From: a virus
DNA: 38,987 nucleotides
Virus record (IMG/VR): IMGVR_UViG_3300047328_000099
Location: 1 to 38,987 of that record
Reading direction: 5' to 3' (one strand)
The translations under genes were made by a program, and so were the position numbers. Numbering within the stretch: the stretch's first letter is position 1; each line of letters opens with the position of its first letter. The notes under the pieces are model-generated. The model made no database searches. It had not been told where the DNA came from and worked only from the letters and a program-made list of their open reading frames with translations. Positions 1-32,742 of the stretch are shown here, in pieces.

Positions 1-1116
1 TCATGCTCTAGCCCTAGAGTTTCTGCGGTTTTTCAGCGTTTCTACTTTGGTCACTTCGGGACTATTCCGGTGATTGGCTGCAAAATCGCGGTCGCTGGCT
101 TCCATCATCGCACGCACGTCATCTTCCAACGCATGGGCGTAGCGGGCCGTCGTCTTGATATCGGTGTGGCCCAGCAGCTTGCTGACTGCCTTCAGATTGC
201 CGGTGGCGCGCAGTGCCCTGGTGCCCGCTGTGTGGCGCAGATCGTGAAAGCGGAAATCGGCAATGCCAGCGGCTTTCAGCGCGCGCTGCCAGTGGCGCGT
301 CCAGCCTTCCTCTGAAAACGGATAGCGTTCGCCGCGCAGCCGTCGCGGTCGATCGGCGCGTGGTGGTGCGGGACGCAGGCAGACATAGGTGAAGACCTGC
401 GCGCATACCCTGGGCTGATTGGCGATCAGCGCAACGAGGCGCGGTGTCAGCGGGATCGTGTGACGCCGACTGCCCTTGGTCGATAGAGTCGCGCGCCCGC
501 CTGCCAGATCAACATCGCTCCAGCGCAGATTGATGACTTCGCTTCTGCGCTGGCCAGTGAGTAGCGCGAATTCGACCACGGGGCGCAGGCTTTCGGGCAG
601 GGCATCGAACAGCTTTTTTTCTTCGTCGCGTGTCAGCTCGCGCACGCGCTCCAGCGGCTCGGTCAGCAGGAGCTTGCCCCAATCAATGGTCGGCACATCG
701 TATCCACGCGCTGCACACCAGCGCCAGACGCGGCGGGCCAGCTCGACTTCGCGATTGACGCTGGCGTTGGCGCGGCCATTCCGCCGGCGAGCGACATAGC
801 GGTCAAATTCACGCAAGGTGATGTCGCCGAGCAGCGCGGATTTGCCCAGCCCTGTAACAAGGCAGCCAAGCTGATATTCGGTGGTCGCTGCCGATTTCAG
901 GTGACAACCCTTCGCCTGCCACCAGACACCGCATGCTTCATCGACCGTGATGGCTGGCCTGGCGTTGTCGCCTAGCGCAACCCGGCGTCGTTGTTCGGCT
1001 TCGAACCGTTCGGCATCGCGGCGCGACGTGCACCTGGTCGAGCCGTGAAAGCGAGCACCTTTCCATTGGAAGTCGTATTGGAAGTACGGGCTTTGCGCGG
1101 GTTTATAGACGGGCAT
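1..1116 (-). CDS. int: Tyrosine-type site-specific integrase
   Basis: 371-aa phage integrase catalysing integration and excision between attP and attB. The N-terminus (about residues 1-45) looks like an arm-type DNA-binding domain, residues 55-150 are SAM-like core binding, and 160-340 are catalytic. The catalytic set is visible: R190 in TGQRRSE, K214, H291-D-L-R294, H317 in LLGH and nucleophile Y326. The stop codon occupies bases 1-3, so the gene is complete and the prophage end or att core should lie just left of the window. It is the last gene of the leftward operon. The N-terminal motif FHGSTRCTSRRDA fits a start at 1116 despite a 145-bp overlap with the preceding excisionase-like gene. 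Confidence 0.97.
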   Translation of the reverse strand: MPVYKPAQSPYFQYDFQWKGARFHGSTRCTSRRDAERFEAEQRRRVALGDNARPAITVDEACGVWWQAKGCHLKSAATTEYQLGCLVTGLGKSALLGDITLREFDRYVARRRNGRANASVNREVELARRVWRWCAARGYDVPTIDWGKLLLTEPLERVRELTRDEEKKLFDALPESLRPVVEFALLTGQRRSEVINLRWSDVDLAGGRATLSTKGSRRHTIPLTPRLVALIANQPRVCAQVFTYVCLRPAPPRADRPRRLRGERYPFSEEGWTRHWQRALKAAGIADFRFHDLRHTAGTRALRATGNLKAVSKLLGHTDIKTTARYAHALEDDVRAMMEASDRDFAANHRNSPEVTKVETLKNRRNSRARA

Positions 1117-2846: not shown

Positions 2847-3214
2847 CGGTTCACCACGCGCAGCAGAGTGTTGGCGTGGCACCAGGCCGATGTCAGCGGG
2901 CACCAGCATTCGAGATTGCGACCGGACAGGCGGTGGAGCGATGCGAGCAGCTTGATGCGCCAGCGGAACAGCGCAGCGATCTCTGCCTCGCTGAAGCCTG
3001 CGCGCGCCAGCACGAATTGCGTCAGGTGGCCATGCAGCCACGCGTCATAGAGGATGACGCTGCGCTTGTGACCGATCCTGGGCCGCGCATAGAACGGGTT
3101 CTGCCATGGCGTCGGGCGACCAACATAGATCGCGCCCACCGAGCCGCCGCCGGCGCCGCCGCCCACCGAGCCGCCCACCGAGCCGCCCACCGAGCCGCCG
3201 CCGCCGCCGCCCAC
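2843..3214 (-). CDS. DUF4326 domain protein with repeat-encoded start region
   Basis: The body is a clear DUF4326 domain: IYVGRPTPWQNPF near the start, YDAWLHGHL in the middle, and the terminal GRNLECWCPL...CHANTLL, whose C-W-C and C-H residues suggest metal binding. The molecular function of the family is unknown. No ATG is available. Several GTG codons occur, one per 12-bp repeat, so the start could be 3214 or any repeat down to 3139, the last one before the domain. The 5' end overlaps the 3' part of the next upstream gene inside a GC-rich tandem repeat; see findings. The stop overlaps the next gene as ATGA. Confidence 0.8.
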   Translation of the reverse strand: MGGGGGGSVGGSVGGSVGGGAGGGSVGAIYVGRPTPWQNPFYARPRIGHKRSVILYDAWLHGHLTQFVLARAGFSEAEIAALFRWRIKLLASLHRLSGRNLECWCPLTSAWCHANTLLRVVNR

Positions 3215-3711
3215 CGAGCCGCCGCCGCCGGCGCCGCCGCCGCCGGCGCCGCCGCCGCCGCCAAGTCGCCGTGGCCTTCGAGCGCCGCGATGACGCCTTC
3301 GCAGGCATCAACGACCTTTTGCCAATAGGCGGGCTTGGGATCGGGCTGGACGGGCTCCGCTGATGCCAGTGCGTCGCGGACCGTCCTGATCAGGAAGCCG
3401 GTGCGGATGCGATCCCAGGCTGCTTCATCGAGCTTGCCCCAAAGCCGCGCGCGTTTTATCAGTTCGCCGCTGAACCATGGTACGTCATCTGCCGCGATCG
3501 CATCGTCGAGCGTCGGCACGAGATGCGCGAGCCATGGTGGCATCAGATCGGCCGGGCAGTCGCCCGAACCCTTGATATCCGGGCCAAACGCCGCGAGTGC
3601 GCAGACGAGCTCGCGCCCGTCCATCGTTTTGCGCCAGGCATGCTGGATGATGCGGCCTTCGGTGTGTGCCTTTTGGGCGTAGTCAAGACGATCTTGAATA
3701 GTCAGTGTCAC
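3022..3711 (-). CDS. Hypothetical phage protein with Ala/Arg/Trp repeat tail
   Basis: 229 aa from a GTG start at 3711. The first ~150 residues look like a conserved alphaproteobacterial phage family (TIQDRLDYAQKAHTEGRIIQHAWR, GDCPADLMPPWLAHL, WFSGELIKRARLWG). After residue ~150 the protein becomes an Ala-rich run with AARW units encoded by a 12-bp tandem repeat. It then continues as a meaningless out-of-frame reading of the DUF4326 gene. The original stop has probably been lost through repeat expansion or a frameshift. No function can be assigned. Confidence 0.75.
   Translation of the reverse strand: MTLTIQDRLDYAQKAHTEGRIIQHAWRKTMDGRELVCALAAFGPDIKGSGDCPADLMPPWLAHLVPTLDDAIAADDVPWFSGELIKRARLWGKLDEAAWDRIRTGFLIRTVRDALASAEPVQPDPKPAYWQKVVDACEGVIAALEGHGDLAAAAAPAAAAPAAAARWAAAAAARWAARWAARWAAAPAAARWARSMLVARRHGRTRSMRGPGSVTSAASSSMTRGCMAT
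3137..3262. repeat. GCC-rich microsatellite with 12-bp CACCGAGCCGCC units
   Basis: About 125 bp built almost wholly from GCC/GCG triplets with four to five copies of the 12-mer CACCGAGCCGCC, three of them in direct tandem. On the coding strand the unit reads GGC-GGC-TCG-GTG (Gly-Gly-Ser-Val) in the DUF4326 frame and GCG-GCT-CGG-TGG (Ala-Ala-Arg-Trp) in the overlapping frame. Whole-unit expansion keeps both frames open. Each unit also supplies a GTG in the DUF4326 frame. Confidence 0.85.
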
Positions 3712-7444: not shown

Positions 7445-7995
7445 TGGCACCGGGGGGGATTGTCTCCAATGCAGCGGCGCACTTGATTGGTAATGCGCGC
7501 GCTGACCTTGGATCAAGGACGACGATCACGCAGGGTTCGGTTGCGCTTGCAGAATGGCTGGCCACGCAGGACCCGCGCTTTTTGGTGACCGATGACCTGC
7601 ATCGGCTGCTGGCGGGCGTGATACGGCCCGGCGATGCGATGGCGGAATGGCTTGGTGATATCAGCTCCGGCGCGGTCACGACTGCCATGTTCGATCGGGC
7701 ATATACCGGGGAATGGCCGTTTGCCTTTGCGGCAGCGGAATCGGTCGCCGAAGTAACCGCGCCCGATGCAACCGGCGTGCTGGTCGAAATCGACGGGCCG
7801 ATCGGCACCTTGCCGCTGGGGCCGGTGTGGCAGGCGGTGCATGGCTTTGGCAATCAGTTCGCGCTGGTCGGGCCGGGCGTTGCGCTGGTGCTGGACGAAA
7901 CCAATGCCTGGGCGATGCGCGGGGCGCTGACCGATGGCCTGCAGGCGCTGCGGCGGCACCGTGAGCCGGGGCGCGAACCGGGGGCAGCGTCGTGA
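7441..7995 (+). CDS. Hypothetical phage early protein, 184 aa
   Basis: Starts at the double ATG at 7441, coupled to the CII-like gene by ATGA. Mixed alpha/beta (GSVALAEWLATQDPRFLVTDDLH; PIGTLPLGPVWQAVHGFGNQF) with no recognised motif. The basic C-terminus (RRHREPGREPG) overlaps the next gene's GTGA start. Its position between regulatory genes suggests an early function that cannot be named. Confidence 0.65.
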   Translation: MMAPGGIVSNAAAHLIGNARADLGSRTTITQGSVALAEWLATQDPRFLVTDDLHRLLAGVIRPGDAMAEWLGDISSGAVTTAMFDRAYTGEWPFAFAAAESVAEVTAPDATGVLVEIDGPIGTLPLGPVWQAVHGFGNQFALVGPGVALVLDETNAWAMRGALTDGLQALRRHREPGREPGAAS

Positions 7996-8591
7996 TAGCC
8001 AGCGCGCCCATCGTCGCATCCGAATTGCGCGCGCATCACCGTCCGCTGGAGGCAGCGGAGCCGCTGCTGTTGGTCGCCGGTCCCTTTGCCGCGTCGGCGG
8101 ACGCCCTTTCGGCCTGGGTGATGAACGCGGGTGAGGGGCGTCAATGCGTCTATGCCCGCGCGGCTTTGTGCCCGCGCGGCGTGGGCGCGATGGCGCGACA
8201 GTTGATGGCGCAGGGTCTGGTGACGTTGCGTCGCCATCGCCACCATGGTGACGACGGGCAATTCAGTGAGGTGTTTGACTTCAAGGCCCGACGCACAGCC
8301 TTGCGATTTGTCGATGCGCGCCCCGTGGCGACAGGTGATCGCCTGCCGCTGGAGGACCGGCTGCTGCTCGATCTGCTGGTTGACCTGGCCGACCGGGAAC
8401 AGCCCGTGCCCTGCAATAGCGATCTGGCGGCGCGGATCGGCGTGCGCGGCGGCAACCGCGTGTCGAAGCAACTGGCGCGCCTTGCCCACTTCAATTTGAT
8501 CCGCGTGCACCACCCCGAACCGATGGGGCCGGGCATCGCGCTTCGACGGGTCGAAATTCTGGAAACCGGCGCAATGACAGGAGCCGCCTGA
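7992..8591 (+). CDS. Winged-helix DNA-binding protein
   Basis: 199 aa from GTG 7992 (GTGA overlap). The C-terminal half holds a winged-helix-like module: LEDRLLLDLLVDLADREQPV, CNSDLAARIGVRGGNRVSKQ, LARLAHFNLIRVHH, that is helix, recognition helix and wing. The N-terminal half contains a second possible HTH region (GVGAMARQLMAQGLVTLRRHRHH). Candidates are an early transcription regulator or a replication initiator acting with the downstream primase/helicase. The domain call is moderately secure and the role is inferred. Confidence 0.65.
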   Translation: MIASAPIVASELRAHHRPLEAAEPLLLVAGPFAASADALSAWVMNAGEGRQCVYARAALCPRGVGAMARQLMAQGLVTLRRHRHHGDDGQFSEVFDFKARRTALRFVDARPVATGDRLPLEDRLLLDLLVDLADREQPVPCNSDLAARIGVRGGNRVSKQLARLAHFNLIRVHHPEPMGPGIALRRVEILETGAMTGAA

Positions 8592-12170: not shown

Positions 12171-13853
12171 ATGTTCGTCTTGTCTCTATCGCCCCAGTTT
12201 CTGGATGAAGTGCGCGGGCGAACGTCGCTGTCGGCGCTGATCGGCGCGTCAATCAAGCTGGTGCGCAAGGGCAGCGAATACAAAGCCTGTTGCCCGTTCC
12301 ATAACGAGAAAACGCCCAGCTTTACGGTCAATGACGACAAGGCGTTCGGGCATTGTTTTGGCTGTGGCTGGCATGGCGATGCGATTCGCTGGCTGACCGA
12401 TTATCGCGGGCTGGATTTCATCGCGGCGGTGCAGGAACTGGCGACCAGGGCCGGGATGGAAATGCCCGCGCCGTCGCCCGCCGCCGCGCAACGCGCGCGT
12501 GCCGTTGCCGATGCCAGCGCGGTGCTGGAGACGGCAGAAGGATGGTATCGTGCGCGGCTGTCGGATGCGCCCGGCGCGCAGAAGGTGCTGGCGGATCGCG
12601 GCGTAACGCCTGCGCTGGCCGAACGCTTTGGCTTTGGGTTTTCTCCTGGGTCACAATCGGTGACAGCGTGCGGTGTGGCGCTGGCCGATCTGGCAGCGGC
12701 GGGCCTGATGGTCGAAACGCCCGATGGCTGGCGCGACCGGTTCCGATTGCGGATCATGATCCCGATTCACGATGCGCGCGGTCGCCTGATCGCGTTTGGC
12801 GGGCGGGCGACGAACGATCGGCAGGACGCGAAATATATCAATTCGCCCGAGGGTGCGCATTTCGACAAGGGGCGCACGCTGTATAATCTGCACCGTGCAG
12901 CACCAATGGCGCGCGTCGCAGGCCGGCTGATCATCGTCGAAGGCTATTTCGACGTGATGTCGCTCGATGCGATCGGCATCGGCGAGGTCGTGGCCCCGAT
13001 GGGGACAGCACTGACTGAAGCACAGCTGGAGCGGGCGTGGCGGGTGCAGGGCTGCCCGATCCTGATGCTCGACGGCGACAAGGCCGGGCGATCGGCCGCG
13101 CTGAAGGCGTGCATGCGGGCAATGCCGATGCTGGGGCCAGATGCCAGCCTGAACATCGCGCTGCTGCCCGAAGGCGAAGATCCTGACAGCCTGGCGCGCG
13201 CACAGGGCGCATCGGCAATCGAGGTGCTGCTGACCGAGGCGGTGCCGCTGTCGCGGTTCGTGTTCGACGCGCTGGTGGAGGCGGGGCCGATCGACACGCC
13301 GGAGGACCGCGCGGGGCTTTGGCAGCGGCTGCAGGCGCTGGCGAGCGAGATAGGCGATGATGAAACCCGCGCGCAATATCTGGCGACCTGGCGCGCGCGC
13401 TTTGACCGCGAGTATGGCGCAGTGGCGTCTGCCGATGACGATCCGCCGGCGTTGCATGCGCTGATCGCGGCAGAGGACGGCGATTATGCCTGGCCCGATG
13501 ACCAGAATGACAGCGAGCGGCGGCTGATCATGATCGTGCAGCGCGTGATCGAACTGCGGCGCGCGCGCGACGAGATCAGCGCGACGATCAAGGACTTGCT
13601 GGCGATGGCAAAGGCAGCGGGGTTTTCCGTAAAGGCGCTGGGCGCCCTGGTGCGCGATATCGAGGCCGATACCGCGCTTCGTGAGGATCATGAAGCGATC
13701 TGGGCGCTGTATCGCCGCGTGCTGGGCGTCAAGGGGCCGATGACCGAGGCGATGCTGCCCAGCCCGGTTGAGGCACGGCGCATCAAGGAATCAACGGCGG
13801 TACAGCGGCGATTGTCGCGGGCGATGGTGATGATCGAGGCGCGGCATGGCTGA
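12171..13853 (+). CDS. DnaG-like DNA primase
   Basis: 560 aa. The N-terminal CHC2 zinc domain has C41-x2-H44 and C62-x2-C65 (CPFHNEKTPSF, HCFGCG). A DnaG catalytic core follows (residues ~140-330) with the toprim motifs EGYFDV and LDGD. The C-terminal ~150 residues are acidic and helical and do not match the DnaB-binding domain of chromosomal DnaG, as expected for a phage primase. It would make RNA primers together with the downstream helicase. ATG 12171 follows GGGG closely; TTG at 12180 is an alternative. The 3' end overlaps the helicase gene by 8 bp. Confidence 0.92.
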   Translation: MFVLSLSPQFLDEVRGRTSLSALIGASIKLVRKGSEYKACCPFHNEKTPSFTVNDDKAFGHCFGCGWHGDAIRWLTDYRGLDFIAAVQELATRAGMEMPAPSPAAAQRARAVADASAVLETAEGWYRARLSDAPGAQKVLADRGVTPALAERFGFGFSPGSQSVTACGVALADLAAAGLMVETPDGWRDRFRLRIMIPIHDARGRLIAFGGRATNDRQDAKYINSPEGAHFDKGRTLYNLHRAAPMARVAGRLIIVEGYFDVMSLDAIGIGEVVAPMGTALTEAQLERAWRVQGCPILMLDGDKAGRSAALKACMRAMPMLGPDASLNIALLPEGEDPDSLARAQGASAIEVLLTEAVPLSRFVFDALVEAGPIDTPEDRAGLWQRLQALASEIGDDETRAQYLATWRARFDREYGAVASADDDPPALHALIAAEDGDYAWPDDQNDSERRLIMIVQRVIELRRARDEISATIKDLLAMAKAAGFSVKALGALVRDIEADTALREDHEAIWALYRRVLGVKGPMTEAMLPSPVEARRIKESTAVQRRLSRAMVMIEARHG

Positions 13854-15480
13854 CGCTGAATATCCGCTGCCGAGCGGCGAGTCCGGTCCTGACATCAGCC
13901 CCGTTCTGTGGCGCGCCAAATGGGACATGAATGACCTGGGCAACGCCCGCCGGCTGGCGGCGATTGCCGAGGGCAAGCTGAAATTTGTCGGCGAGCTGGG
14001 CCGCCAGGGCGAATGGGTGAGTTTCGATGCTCAGCGCTGGTCGATGCGCGACGGCAAGGCGCGCGCGCAGGCGCTGGCGCAGCGTGTGGTCGATGAATTG
14101 ATCGCCGAAGCGCGGGCAATGCGCGATGCGACGAAAGAACAACTGTCCGCCGTGTTCGGCCCGAAATTCACCGATGACATGGCCGATGAACGCGCAGTCA
14201 ATCTCTACAGCTGGGCAATGAAAACGGGCAACAGCGACCGCGCCAGCGGCATGCTGAAGCAGGCGCAGGGCATCACCGATGGCGAAGACCGCTTTCTGAT
14301 GCGCGCCAGCCTGGACGATTTCGATACTGATCCGCTGGCATGGCACTGCCTGAACGGCACGATCCGATTTTTTGAAGGGCCGGAGGGCTGGGCGTTCCGG
14401 TTCGAGCGCGGGCACCGTGCGGCCGATATGTTCATGCAGATGGCCAATGTGGAATATGATGCCAGAGCGAGCGCGCCACGCTGGATCGCACGGCTAGACG
14501 TGCTGCACCATGATCCGGTCGCGCGAACGGCGTTGCAGCGCATCTATGGGATGACGCTGACGGGGTTGGTCTCCGATCAGGCATTCTATGTCTATCAGGG
14601 GCGCGGCGGCGACGGCAAGTCGATGACGAACAGCATCGTCGCCGACCTGCAGGGCGATTATTTCCGATCGACCAGCCCCCAAACCTTTCTGGAAGGCAAG
14701 CAGCGCAACGCGAGCGACCACCAGAGCGATATCGTGCGGCTGCGTGGCGACATCCGCATGGTGGTGTGTGACGAGCCCAAAAAGGGCAGCATCTGGAACG
14801 GCGAGCGCATCAAGCAGGTGACGGGCAGCCTGATCACCGCGCGCGCGCCCAATGCGGTGGAGGAAATCACCTATAAACCACGCTGGAAGCTGATCATCGA
14901 ATGCAACCCCCTGCCGCGCGCGCCCAGCGATGATCGCGGGTTTCGGCGGCGATTCAAACTCTATCCGTGGACTGTCCAGTACGGTGTGACCGAGGGCGTT
15001 GAAGAACGCCCCGAGCATCTGGTGCGGGCCGAATTGATTGCTGAAAAGGCGGGCATTCTTAACTGGATGATCGCGGGTGCAATCGAGTGGCTGCGCACCG
15101 GGGTGATCCCCGAGCCGGAGCTGTCGAAGCGCGCGCTGTCGAGCTTCTGGGCGACGGGCAGCGCGATGGGCGAATGGATCGAGGCGCGGTGCGACCTGAG
15201 CAATCCTGACGCGCAGACCGGCGCGACCGAGCTGTACAACGATTTCAGGCGGTTCTGCCTCGATCGCGGCGACGATGAAGATAAGATCATGAAGCAGACT
15301 GCGTTCGGCAATCTGCTCAACGAGGCGCAGGTTTACGGCGATAAGGACAAGCGGACCGGGCTGAAGGTGCGACTGGGCATCCGGCTGCGCGGGATCGGCG
15401 AAACGCCGCCCGGCGCGGCTGCTGGCTCGCCTGATGATCGTGGCGGCGCGCCTGAAATCGACTGGGATGAGCCGCTATGA
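13846..15480 (+). CDS. Phage SF3 helicase / P4-type primase C-terminal protein
   Basis: 544 aa. The Walker A GRGGDGKSM sits in the superfamily-3 arrangement of D5/P4-family helicases, preceded by the ...YGMTLTGLVSDQAFYVYQ region. It is followed by MVVCDEP (Walker B), the sensor region TARAPNAVEEITYKPRWKLI, and ECNPLPRAPSDDRGFRRRF. The N-terminal ~190 residues carry no primase zinc domain, which the preceding gene supplies. It should unwind the phage origin as a hexamer. The repeat-rich stretch follows directly after its stop and is a natural candidate for its target. Confidence 0.93.
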   Translation: MADAEYPLPSGESGPDISPVLWRAKWDMNDLGNARRLAAIAEGKLKFVGELGRQGEWVSFDAQRWSMRDGKARAQALAQRVVDELIAEARAMRDATKEQLSAVFGPKFTDDMADERAVNLYSWAMKTGNSDRASGMLKQAQGITDGEDRFLMRASLDDFDTDPLAWHCLNGTIRFFEGPEGWAFRFERGHRAADMFMQMANVEYDARASAPRWIARLDVLHHDPVARTALQRIYGMTLTGLVSDQAFYVYQGRGGDGKSMTNSIVADLQGDYFRSTSPQTFLEGKQRNASDHQSDIVRLRGDIRMVVCDEPKKGSIWNGERIKQVTGSLITARAPNAVEEITYKPRWKLIIECNPLPRAPSDDRGFRRRFKLYPWTVQYGVTEGVEERPEHLVRAELIAEKAGILNWMIAGAIEWLRTGVIPEPELSKRALSSFWATGSAMGEWIEARCDLSNPDAQTGATELYNDFRRFCLDRGDDEDKIMKQTAFGNLLNEAQVYGDKDKRTGLKVRLGIRLRGIGETPPGAAAGSPDDRGGAPEIDWDEPL

Positions 15481-15490
15481 CGTGGCTTGT

Positions 15491-15735
15491 TCAACTGTCC
15501 GGTCAACTGTCCGGCGACGTGTCCGGTTGCCTTGCTGGCGGGGTGTTGAGGGTGGCCATAGCGGCGCGAATAGACGGTTTCGGATAGTCGGTAGGACGGT
15601 TGCCGGACAGTTGATCGGACAGTGAAAAAGCCCGGATTTGTGCGGGCTTGGCGATGATCCGGACAGTTGTAGGCTAGGTCGGTAAGCTACATGTGCGCGC
15701 ACACGACTATTACGAAGTTAAGTATAACTGTCCGG
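15491..15735. repeat. Array of seven TCAACTGTCCGG elements, candidate origin
   Basis: Three direct tandem copies on the + strand (15491-15502 and 15503-15514 exact, 15515-15526 9/12). Then, inverted, 15603-15614 (exact), 15615-15626 (imperfect, directly abutting) and 15659-15670 (11/12), and one forward copy at 15724-15735 (10/12). The 267-bp region between 15480 and 15748 holds no convincing gene. It also contains a 12-bp palindrome TGTGCGCGCACA (15692-15703) and the inverted repeat AGTTA/TAACT (15716-15729). Iteron-like spacing next to the helicase gene suggests a replication origin; a regulator-binding array for the late operon is the alternative. Confidence 0.7.
15628..15654 (-). terminator. 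Leftward intrinsic terminator in repeat region
   Basis: AAGCCCG (15628-15634), 8-base loop, CGGGCTT (15643-15649). On the minus strand the stem is followed by a run of T (the AAAAA at 15625-15629 on the + strand), so it terminates leftward transcripts, although no leftward gene is nearby. Confidence 0.5.
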
Positions 15736-15747
15736 GAAGGGATGAAG

Positions 15748-16221
15748 ATGATGGATGGCCTGATGAGCTTCGCCGATGTCGAGCAGCGGTTGGTCGAGGC
15801 GATGCTGATCTGCTGGCGCATGCCCGATCGCGAGCGCGGCTGGATGCGGCTGCGCGCCTACTGGCCCGACGTGTCGGCGGAAGCTGGTGACTATGACGCG
15901 CGCGGCGGCGATCTGCGCAGTTCCGACGTGGCGATCCGCCCGGCCTCGCTGACGCGGGCAGAAGTGGCGGCGATGGAGGAAGCCTTTGGCTGGCTGGACC
16001 TGGTGCCCGCTGCCGATCGCAAGCTGGTGGGCCTGGCGGTGACGGCGCTGGCGCGGGGTGCGGGGCAGATACCATGGCTGAAATTGCGGGCTGCGATGGG
16101 TGTGCGATACGGCGCTGGCGGGCTGGCCAAGCGATATGAACGTGCGATCGGGGAAATATGCCGCAGCGTAAATGGCGGATTTCCTGACGTGCAGCGTGTC
16201 AAGAGGGTAAATCTCGCATGA
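15748..16221 (+). CDS. DUF6362-like phage protein
   Basis: 157 aa. The start is set at ATG 15748, which has GGGAAGG seven bases upstream; in-frame ATGs exist at 15742 and 15751. The N-terminus VEQRLVEAMLICWRMPDRERGWMR followed by YWPD, and the C-terminal LKLRAAMGVRYGAGGLAKRYERAIGEI, match the DUF6362 layout. That C-terminus resembles an HTH of sigma-region-4 type. Such proteins often sit just before the terminase genes, so a late-gene regulator is a reasonable inference but not established. Confidence 0.7.
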   Translation: MMDGLMSFADVEQRLVEAMLICWRMPDRERGWMRLRAYWPDVSAEAGDYDARGGDLRSSDVAIRPASLTRAEVAAMEEAFGWLDLVPAADRKLVGLAVTALARGAGQIPWLKLRAAMGVRYGAGGLAKRYERAIGEICRSVNGGFPDVQRVKRVNLA

Positions 16222-31908: not shown

Positions 31909-32742
31909 ATGGCAAACGCATGGATCGTCAAGCCGCTGGCCATCGCATCGGCCAGCGCTTCCTCCACCGCGCTTGGCGCGGCGCTGAACGTCAACATCGA
32001 TTATGCCGGAATCATCTGGCAATCGGCGGCGGGTGATACCGCCAGCCTGACGCTTGATCTGGGGGCGGATGTCGCGCTCGATACCATTCTCGCTTTCGGT
32101 CTGGCCGGGGGATTCGCCGCCAGTGCGACCGTGCAGATCGCGCTGGCGACGGCGGCGCAGGGCAGTGGGTTCAGCGGCAGCAACACCGGATCGGGCACGG
32201 GCACCGGCAATTACTGGGCGGTGACGCAGGCGCTGCTGGCGGGCAGTGCGACGCCGGTCAGCGGCAAGGGCGTGATGTTGTGGTCTGCCCCGGCGAGTGC
32301 GGGGCCGCCCGCTGCGGTGCGCTATATCAAACTGTCATTCGCCGGGCTGGGGTCAGGCGCGGCGATCCAGATATCGCGGATTGTCGCGGGCGCGCGGATC
32401 GCGCTCAGCCGCAATTTCAGCTATGGCGGCAATCTGGGCGTCCGCGATCTGGGCGAGCTGACCTTTTCGGCGCGCGGGGCGATGCTGCGGCGGCGCGCGG
32501 CGAAACTGCGCACCATCGCGCTCACCTTTTCCAACATCCGCAAGGATGAAGTCGAGGCGCTGACCAAGCCGCTGCTGGAGCAGATCGGCAATACCGAAAC
32601 GATCGCGCTCGTCACCGATCCCGGCACCGACGCGCAGCGCCAGAACCGCTGCTATTTCGGGCCGGTGGTCGGCGATCTGGGGCAGGTGTGGCGCACATCG
32701 GCATCCTGGGAAGCCAAGATCAATCTGGTGAGCCTGTTCTGA
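31909..32742 (+). CDS. Distal tail-like structural protein, 277 aa
   Basis: The N-terminal 170 residues are a Gly/Ser/Ala-rich beta-sandwich resembling discoidin-like carbohydrate-binding domains (DTASLTLDLGADVALDTILA; RYIKLSFAGLG). The C-terminal 100 residues form a compact domain (RNFSYGGNLGVRDLGELTFS; WRTSASWEAKINLVSLF) seen in tail-tip proteins of alphaproteobacterial siphophages. Likely part of the baseplate or adhesin. The stop overlaps the next ATG. Confidence 0.65.
   Translation: MANAWIVKPLAIASASASSTALGAALNVNIDYAGIIWQSAAGDTASLTLDLGADVALDTILAFGLAGGFAASATVQIALATAAQGSGFSGSNTGSGTGTGNYWAVTQALLAGSATPVSGKGVMLWSAPASAGPPAAVRYIKLSFAGLGSGAAIQISRIVAGARIALSRNFSYGGNLGVRDLGELTFSARGAMLRRRAAKLRTIALTFSNIRKDEVEALTKPLLEQIGNTETIALVTDPGTDAQRQNRCYFGPVVGDLGQVWRTSASWEAKINLVSLF

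Follow-up and report, generated by a model that had tools for sequence, protein, structure and literature searches.

Iteron origins that lie downstream of the gene for a self-loading helicase have been described in several mobile elements. In phage P4, the cis-required replication region (crr) is located directly after gene alpha and carries converging 8-bp type 1 repeats (GGTGAACA) spaced 9 bp apart. Its helicase, gp-alpha, has a C-terminal winged-helix origin-binding domain (1ka8), and this domain and RFX1 are winged-helix proteins of one kind (PMC10516667). The origins of staphylococcal SaPIs likewise follow the helicase gene directly, and it is the C-terminal domain of the helicase that reads them, while the staphylococcal SCCmec helicase Cch2, which is of the D5_N type, and its C-terminal domain bind specifically to direct repeats downstream of its own gene; in both cases the iterons are short (PMC7581432). 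Two GenBank phage records annotate origins at exactly the corresponding place, directly after a D5-type primase gene: a rep_origin at 32208-32717 in Lactobacillus phage A2, with the word ACGGGAGGA in converging copies, and a 302-bp origin plus phage inhibitory sequence in Streptococcus phage Sfi21, with AGTAACT repeats 9 bp apart. Finally, the archaeal plasmid pRN1 has an essential non-coding element just downstream of its primase-helicase replication gene (PMC4234260).

Here, we analyzed a 38,987-nucleotide stretch of viral DNA (IMG/VR virus record IMGVR_UViG_3300047328_000099; hereafter, the window), in which a 261-bp gap (15481-15741) separates a D5/SF3 helicase gene from a DUF6362-like gene. 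We conclude that this gap is very probably the replication origin of the phage, that it is an iteron origin of the P4/D5-helicase class, and that it is read by the neighbouring helicase. The window origin would therefore belong to the already known kind described above, and, like P4, SaPI and SCCmec, it has its repeat array immediately past the helicase gene. It differs from each of these systems in detail. In P4, the crr repeat unit is present twice, a separate ori lies at a distance of ~5 kb, the word and core are different, and primase and helicase form one protein, whereas the window phage encodes a separate DnaG-type primase. SaPI and SCCmec are Gram-positive genomic islands with other words, A2 and Sfi21 are low-GC phages with AT-rich cores and other words, and the pRN1 element is not an iteron array but a stem-loop.

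A repeat array fills the gap downstream of the helicase gene

The gap contains no plausible gene. The helicase stop is at 15480, the array begins ~11 bp past it, and the next gene starts from ~15742, which agrees with the original prediction of a non-coding block right after the helicase gene. Within the gap we found ~10 copies of the 9-bp word CGGACAGTT in both orientations, five exact and five degenerate. Sites were read in the CGGACAGTT register with a profile built from the two closest relatives (loci L023 and L024, whose helicases are 72% and 65% identical to that of the window); eight of them score at least 8.8, and two additional degenerate sites, at 15517 and 15571, come from alignment to the same two relatives. 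An outer left block on the minus strand consists of exact iterons at 15493-15501 and 15505-15513, and these are followed by the minus-strand degenerate iteron CGGACACGT (7/9) at 15517-15525, whose position is conserved in both relatives. Plus-strand sites are located at 15571-15579 (TAGACGGTT, 6/9, with a corresponding site in L023), 15581-15589 (CGGATAGTC, degenerate), 15593-15601 (AGGACGGTT, degenerate), 15604-15612 (exact), 15616-15624 (CGGACAGTG, 8/9) and 15660-15668 (exact), the last of which forms the left edge of a core. An exact minus-strand iteron at 15726-15734, beside the start of the DUF6362-like gene, forms the right edge. All sites from 15581 onward were assigned by the profile.

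The array had originally been described as seven copies of the 12-mer TCAACTGTCCGG, and it is real but larger, the degenerate sites at 15571, 15581 and 15593 having been missed. Its regularity had also been overstated. The 12-mer is exact at 15491 (+), 15503 (+) and 15603 (-), so that two of the three claimed tandem copies at 12-bp spacing are confirmed, while the third (15515, CGACGTGTCCGG) matches at only 8/12 positions. Among the other claimed inverted copies, that at 15659 (-) has 1 mismatch and that at 15615 matches at only 9/12, and the forward copy at 15724 (+) is present with 2 mismatches.

None of 3000 shuffled versions of the gap reached five copies of any 10-mer, and the array score of the gap (34.7) is above that of each of the 95 remaining 400-bp tiles in the window (maximum 27.1), which together exclude a chance origin of the array. 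The 10-mer that recurs, AACTGTCCGG, occurs five times in the gap and not once in the rest of the 39 kb. Short iterons in tandem and inverted orientation, a feature of P4/D5-type iteron origins, are thus present above chance. Furthermore, iteron positions are 64% invariant relative to L023 and L024 compared to 23% for spacers (p = 1.6e-10), in an alignment that itself prefers similar stretches. The second inverted repeat of the original prediction, AAGCCCG/CGGGCTT, is also present. It forms a weak minus-strand hairpin within the array (15628-15649), with a short T run after it on the minus strand, and alignment revealed that it is not kept in L023 or L024. Scanning the gap for promoters, terminators and Rfam families returned nothing useful, with no promoter-like or terminator-like site, and GC skew across the window has no turning point at the gap.

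Arrays occupy the same place in related phages

Our comparison covered 80 IMG/VR loci that encode homologous helicases, together with the records of nine named phages. Of 87 non-identical loci, 78 had a higher score over the 400 bp past the helicase stop than in any of the sampled control tiles, and arrays lie in the same place in most relatives, whichever gene comes next. A search for the array beside orthologous helicases had been proposed as a check, and its outcome leaves the origin reading standing. The words differ between loci but share a grammar (i.e., NGGANRGNT, a mostly 9-bp period and converging arms). When the words of 79 loci are brought into a common register, their average is [CTG]GGA[GCA][GA]G[TAG]T, and 192 of the 386 same-strand neighbours within 20 bp are spaced 9 bp. 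Many loci (e.g., L057 and L073) have a near mirror-symmetric set of twelve sites.

Some observations count against the origin reading. The clade formed by the window, L023 and L024 departs from the common pattern in that its spacing is mostly 11-12 bp and not 9 bp, and the window core is edged by single exact iterons where other loci usually have two or three per arm. No array was detectable in L065, L071, L077, L080 or L091, and in phage RR1-A the array is displaced two genes further on.

Microcystis phage Mae-JY28 (L010, PP438420.1) resembles the other phages here: an array of TGGAAGGGT separates its D5-type helicase gene from one for a DUF6362-like protein. The cyanobacterial host on record for this phage may merit checking. 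A second contig with two close repeat copies (L008) was set aside because it carries a 15-bp-period repeat without helicase context.

The repeat word tracks the C-terminal winged helix of the helicase

The gene upstream of the gap (13846-15480, + strand) encodes a D5-type SF3 helicase of the phage/plasmid primase P4 family C-terminal type (Pfam D5_N, E = 3e-13; NCBIfam TIGR01613, 133 bits, above the cut-off of 108.7) and a predicted origin-binding initiator. Its AlphaFold model (pLDDT 88.9) places a winged helix at approximately residues 457-515, with a predicted recognition helix (484-493) and a wing (498-510) that includes strands 498-500 and 507-510. Among solved structures in the PDB, the whole model comes closest to the SaPI5 primase-helicase (Z = 29.4 over 398 residues, rmsd 5.9). 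Taken alone, the C-terminal domain gives modest matches to the DNA-binding domain of RFX (Z = 8.6) and to 1ka8, the origin-binding domain of P4 (Z = 7.7). On the basis of this model, the helicase is predicted to bear a C-terminal winged-helix origin-binding domain. As a single-sequence query, the window helicase found no relatives in viral contigs or in the genome contigs scanned, and a three-sequence alignment found none in genome contigs either, so no bacterial host can be named from the genome-contig scans.

Across loci, the repeat word tracks the C-terminal winged helix of the helicase and not the DUF6362-like neighbour. Word similarity correlates at 0.54 with sequence identity over helicase residues 430-530 and at 0.58 with that over residues 476-520, compared to 0.40 for the AAA core. 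In Mantel tests, which remove shared ancestry only in part, the partial r with each region controlled for the other was 0.40 for residues 430-530 (permutation p = 0.001) and -0.09 for the AAA core. A second test set of 37 representatives with <60% identity corroborated these results, with a partial r of 0.39 (p = 0.0005) for the winged helix given the AAA core. In this set, the best 25-column block was residues 484-511, a peak that corresponds to the predicted recognition helix and wing. Two results count against this assignment: the AAA core retains a small partial correlation of 0.16 (p = 0.01) on the 37 representatives, and a block near the helicase N-terminus (residues ~113-157) likewise correlates with the word. 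Mutual information was unconvincing, with 7 of the top 20 columns at residues ≥430, where 89 of the 407 columns lie. The predicted winged helix held 10 of 25 columns (p = 0.0004), a count made after the first list had been seen and weaker than the partial Mantel tests.

An alternating tract lies in the core between converging iterons

The core of the window array is bounded by the iterons at 15660 (+) and 15726 (-) and contains an 18-nt alternating purine-pyrimidine tract, TACATGTGCGCGCACACG (15688-15705), which is the longest such run in the 39-kb window. Within it is a 12-bp perfect palindrome, TGTGCGCGCACA (15692-15703), as had been reported originally. Relative to L023 and L024, the tract is 78% invariant compared to 23% for spacers (p = 7e-6), again in an alignment that itself prefers similar stretches. 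Beside the tract is an AT-richer stretch (15704-15733) that is a candidate unwinding element: GC is 0.41 over 15704-15735 compared to 0.64 for the window, and the best 24 bp are 75% AT, with more AT-rich DNA elsewhere in the window.

In 73 loci, converging sites enclose a core (median length 65 bp), and 51 of these loci have at least two sites per converging arm. The median alternating run was 11.5 nt in cores and 6 nt in control windows of the same loci. The core run reached p < 0.05 in 46 of 70 loci and was longer than the best other spacer of the same gap in 63 of 69. The P4 crr has no comparable alternating run (judged by eye) and the A2 core carries TATATATA instead, which makes the tract a feature of part of the class. 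SaPI and SCCmec origins have an AT-rich core, and we know of no CG-alternating tract in it. A literature search gave no description of an alternating tract in such origins, although its coverage was limited and this is weak evidence of absence. This conserved and possibly Z-prone tract between the arms is the less expected result of our analysis.

A model for origin function and its alternatives

The candidate origin of the original prediction is supported by the same-place arrays in relatives, by the annotated origins of A2 and Sfi21, by the P4 crr, and by a repeat word that follows the helicase C-terminal domain. We propose that the helicase encoded immediately upstream would bind the CGGACAGTT iterons via its C-terminal winged helix, and that helicase rings would assemble on both sides of the core. 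The core DNA would open where the alternating tract lies beside AT-richer DNA, and the helicase would then unwind outward while a neighbouring DnaG-type primase (12171-13853, + strand), its likely partner, primes synthesis.

The repeats could instead be operators for a regulator of the downstream packaging (late) operon, which the original prediction had considered the main alternative. The DUF6362-like protein would be one such regulator (15742-16221, + strand, with its start codon at 15742, 15748 or 15751; phrog_6836, E = 6e-24; Pfam DUF6362, 22.7 bits, under the 31-bit cut-off). The last iteron abuts the start of this gene, TerS and TerL come after it, and a DUF6362-like gene is found within 2.2 kb in 30 of 90 loci; however, the remaining 60 have none, and most of these still carry the array. 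Across 26 loci that have such a gene, the word correlates at 0.82 with the helicase C-terminus and at 0.27 with DUF6362. Once the helicase is controlled for, DUF6362 has a partial r of -0.20 (p = 1.0), so the word does not change with this regulator. Individual proteins behave accordingly: the DUF6362-like protein of the window is 66% identical to that of L029 (word CGGCGGGTT) and 57% identical to that of L090 (word TGGAAGGAC), while its counterparts in L023 and L024, which have the same word as the window, are only 36-38% identical to it. Because the word does not track the DUF6362-like neighbour, which by covariation is not the repeat reader, we consider a late-operon regulator array very unlikely.

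Many origins use a separate initiator, and if the gap is an origin of this type, some other protein of phage or host could read the repeats and load the helicase. A winged-helix protein encoded at 7992-8591 had been suggested as a candidate, for which we found no family match, and the correlation of the helicase N-terminal block with the word also speaks for a separate reader. We nonetheless regard this as very unlikely, because the covariation peak falls within the helicase itself, on its predicted recognition helix and wing, and because repeat recognition by SaPI Rep and Cch2 is reported to go through their C-terminal domains (PMC7581432). It would be extremely improbable for the array to act chiefly on the helicase operon or on copy number (e.g., by titration or transcription control) and not in starting replication. 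The hairpin at 15628-15649 and the inhibition of phage in trans by the Sfi21 origin segment (PMC6356513) are consistent with such a role, but the absence of promoter-like or terminator-like sites from the gap and of the hairpin from L023 and L024 argues against it, and converging arms with a special core are hard to explain by regulation alone.

If these gaps are replication origins read by their helicases, then a simple rule locates the origin: look just after the D5-type helicase gene. To our knowledge, most temperate phages from the environment have no mapped origin. Such gaps would also supply compact origins for mini-replicons. Covariation of the word with the C-terminal domain offers a testable recognition code and bears on which phages share or block each other's replication, and the conserved alternating core raises the concrete question of how these helicases open double-stranded DNA. 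Tentatively, we suggest that, in high-GC phages, origins that use helicases of this class might share an undescribed element, a long alternating (possibly Z-forming) tract between converging arms that acts as a strand-opening trigger when two helicase rings load, and that the word and the winged-helix recognition surface might co-evolve as a readable code setting replication incompatibility between phages.

Other features of the window

The sole exact copy of CGGACAGTT outside the gap lies within the helicase coding sequence (14141-14149, - strand). The DnaG-type primase has a C-terminal GapR-like DNA-binding domain (residues 450-519), and this fusion is not unique to the window phage, as one PHROG family spans both parts. 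A simple GCC/ACCGAGCCGCC tract at 3140-3262, over a minus-strand reading frame (3022-3711), is possibly slippage-prone. The 687-aa protein encoded at 20861-22924 matches the head-protease/major-head family phrog_4523. Lastly, an integrase gene is found at the left end of the window (1-1116, - strand), which suggests that the phage is probably temperate.
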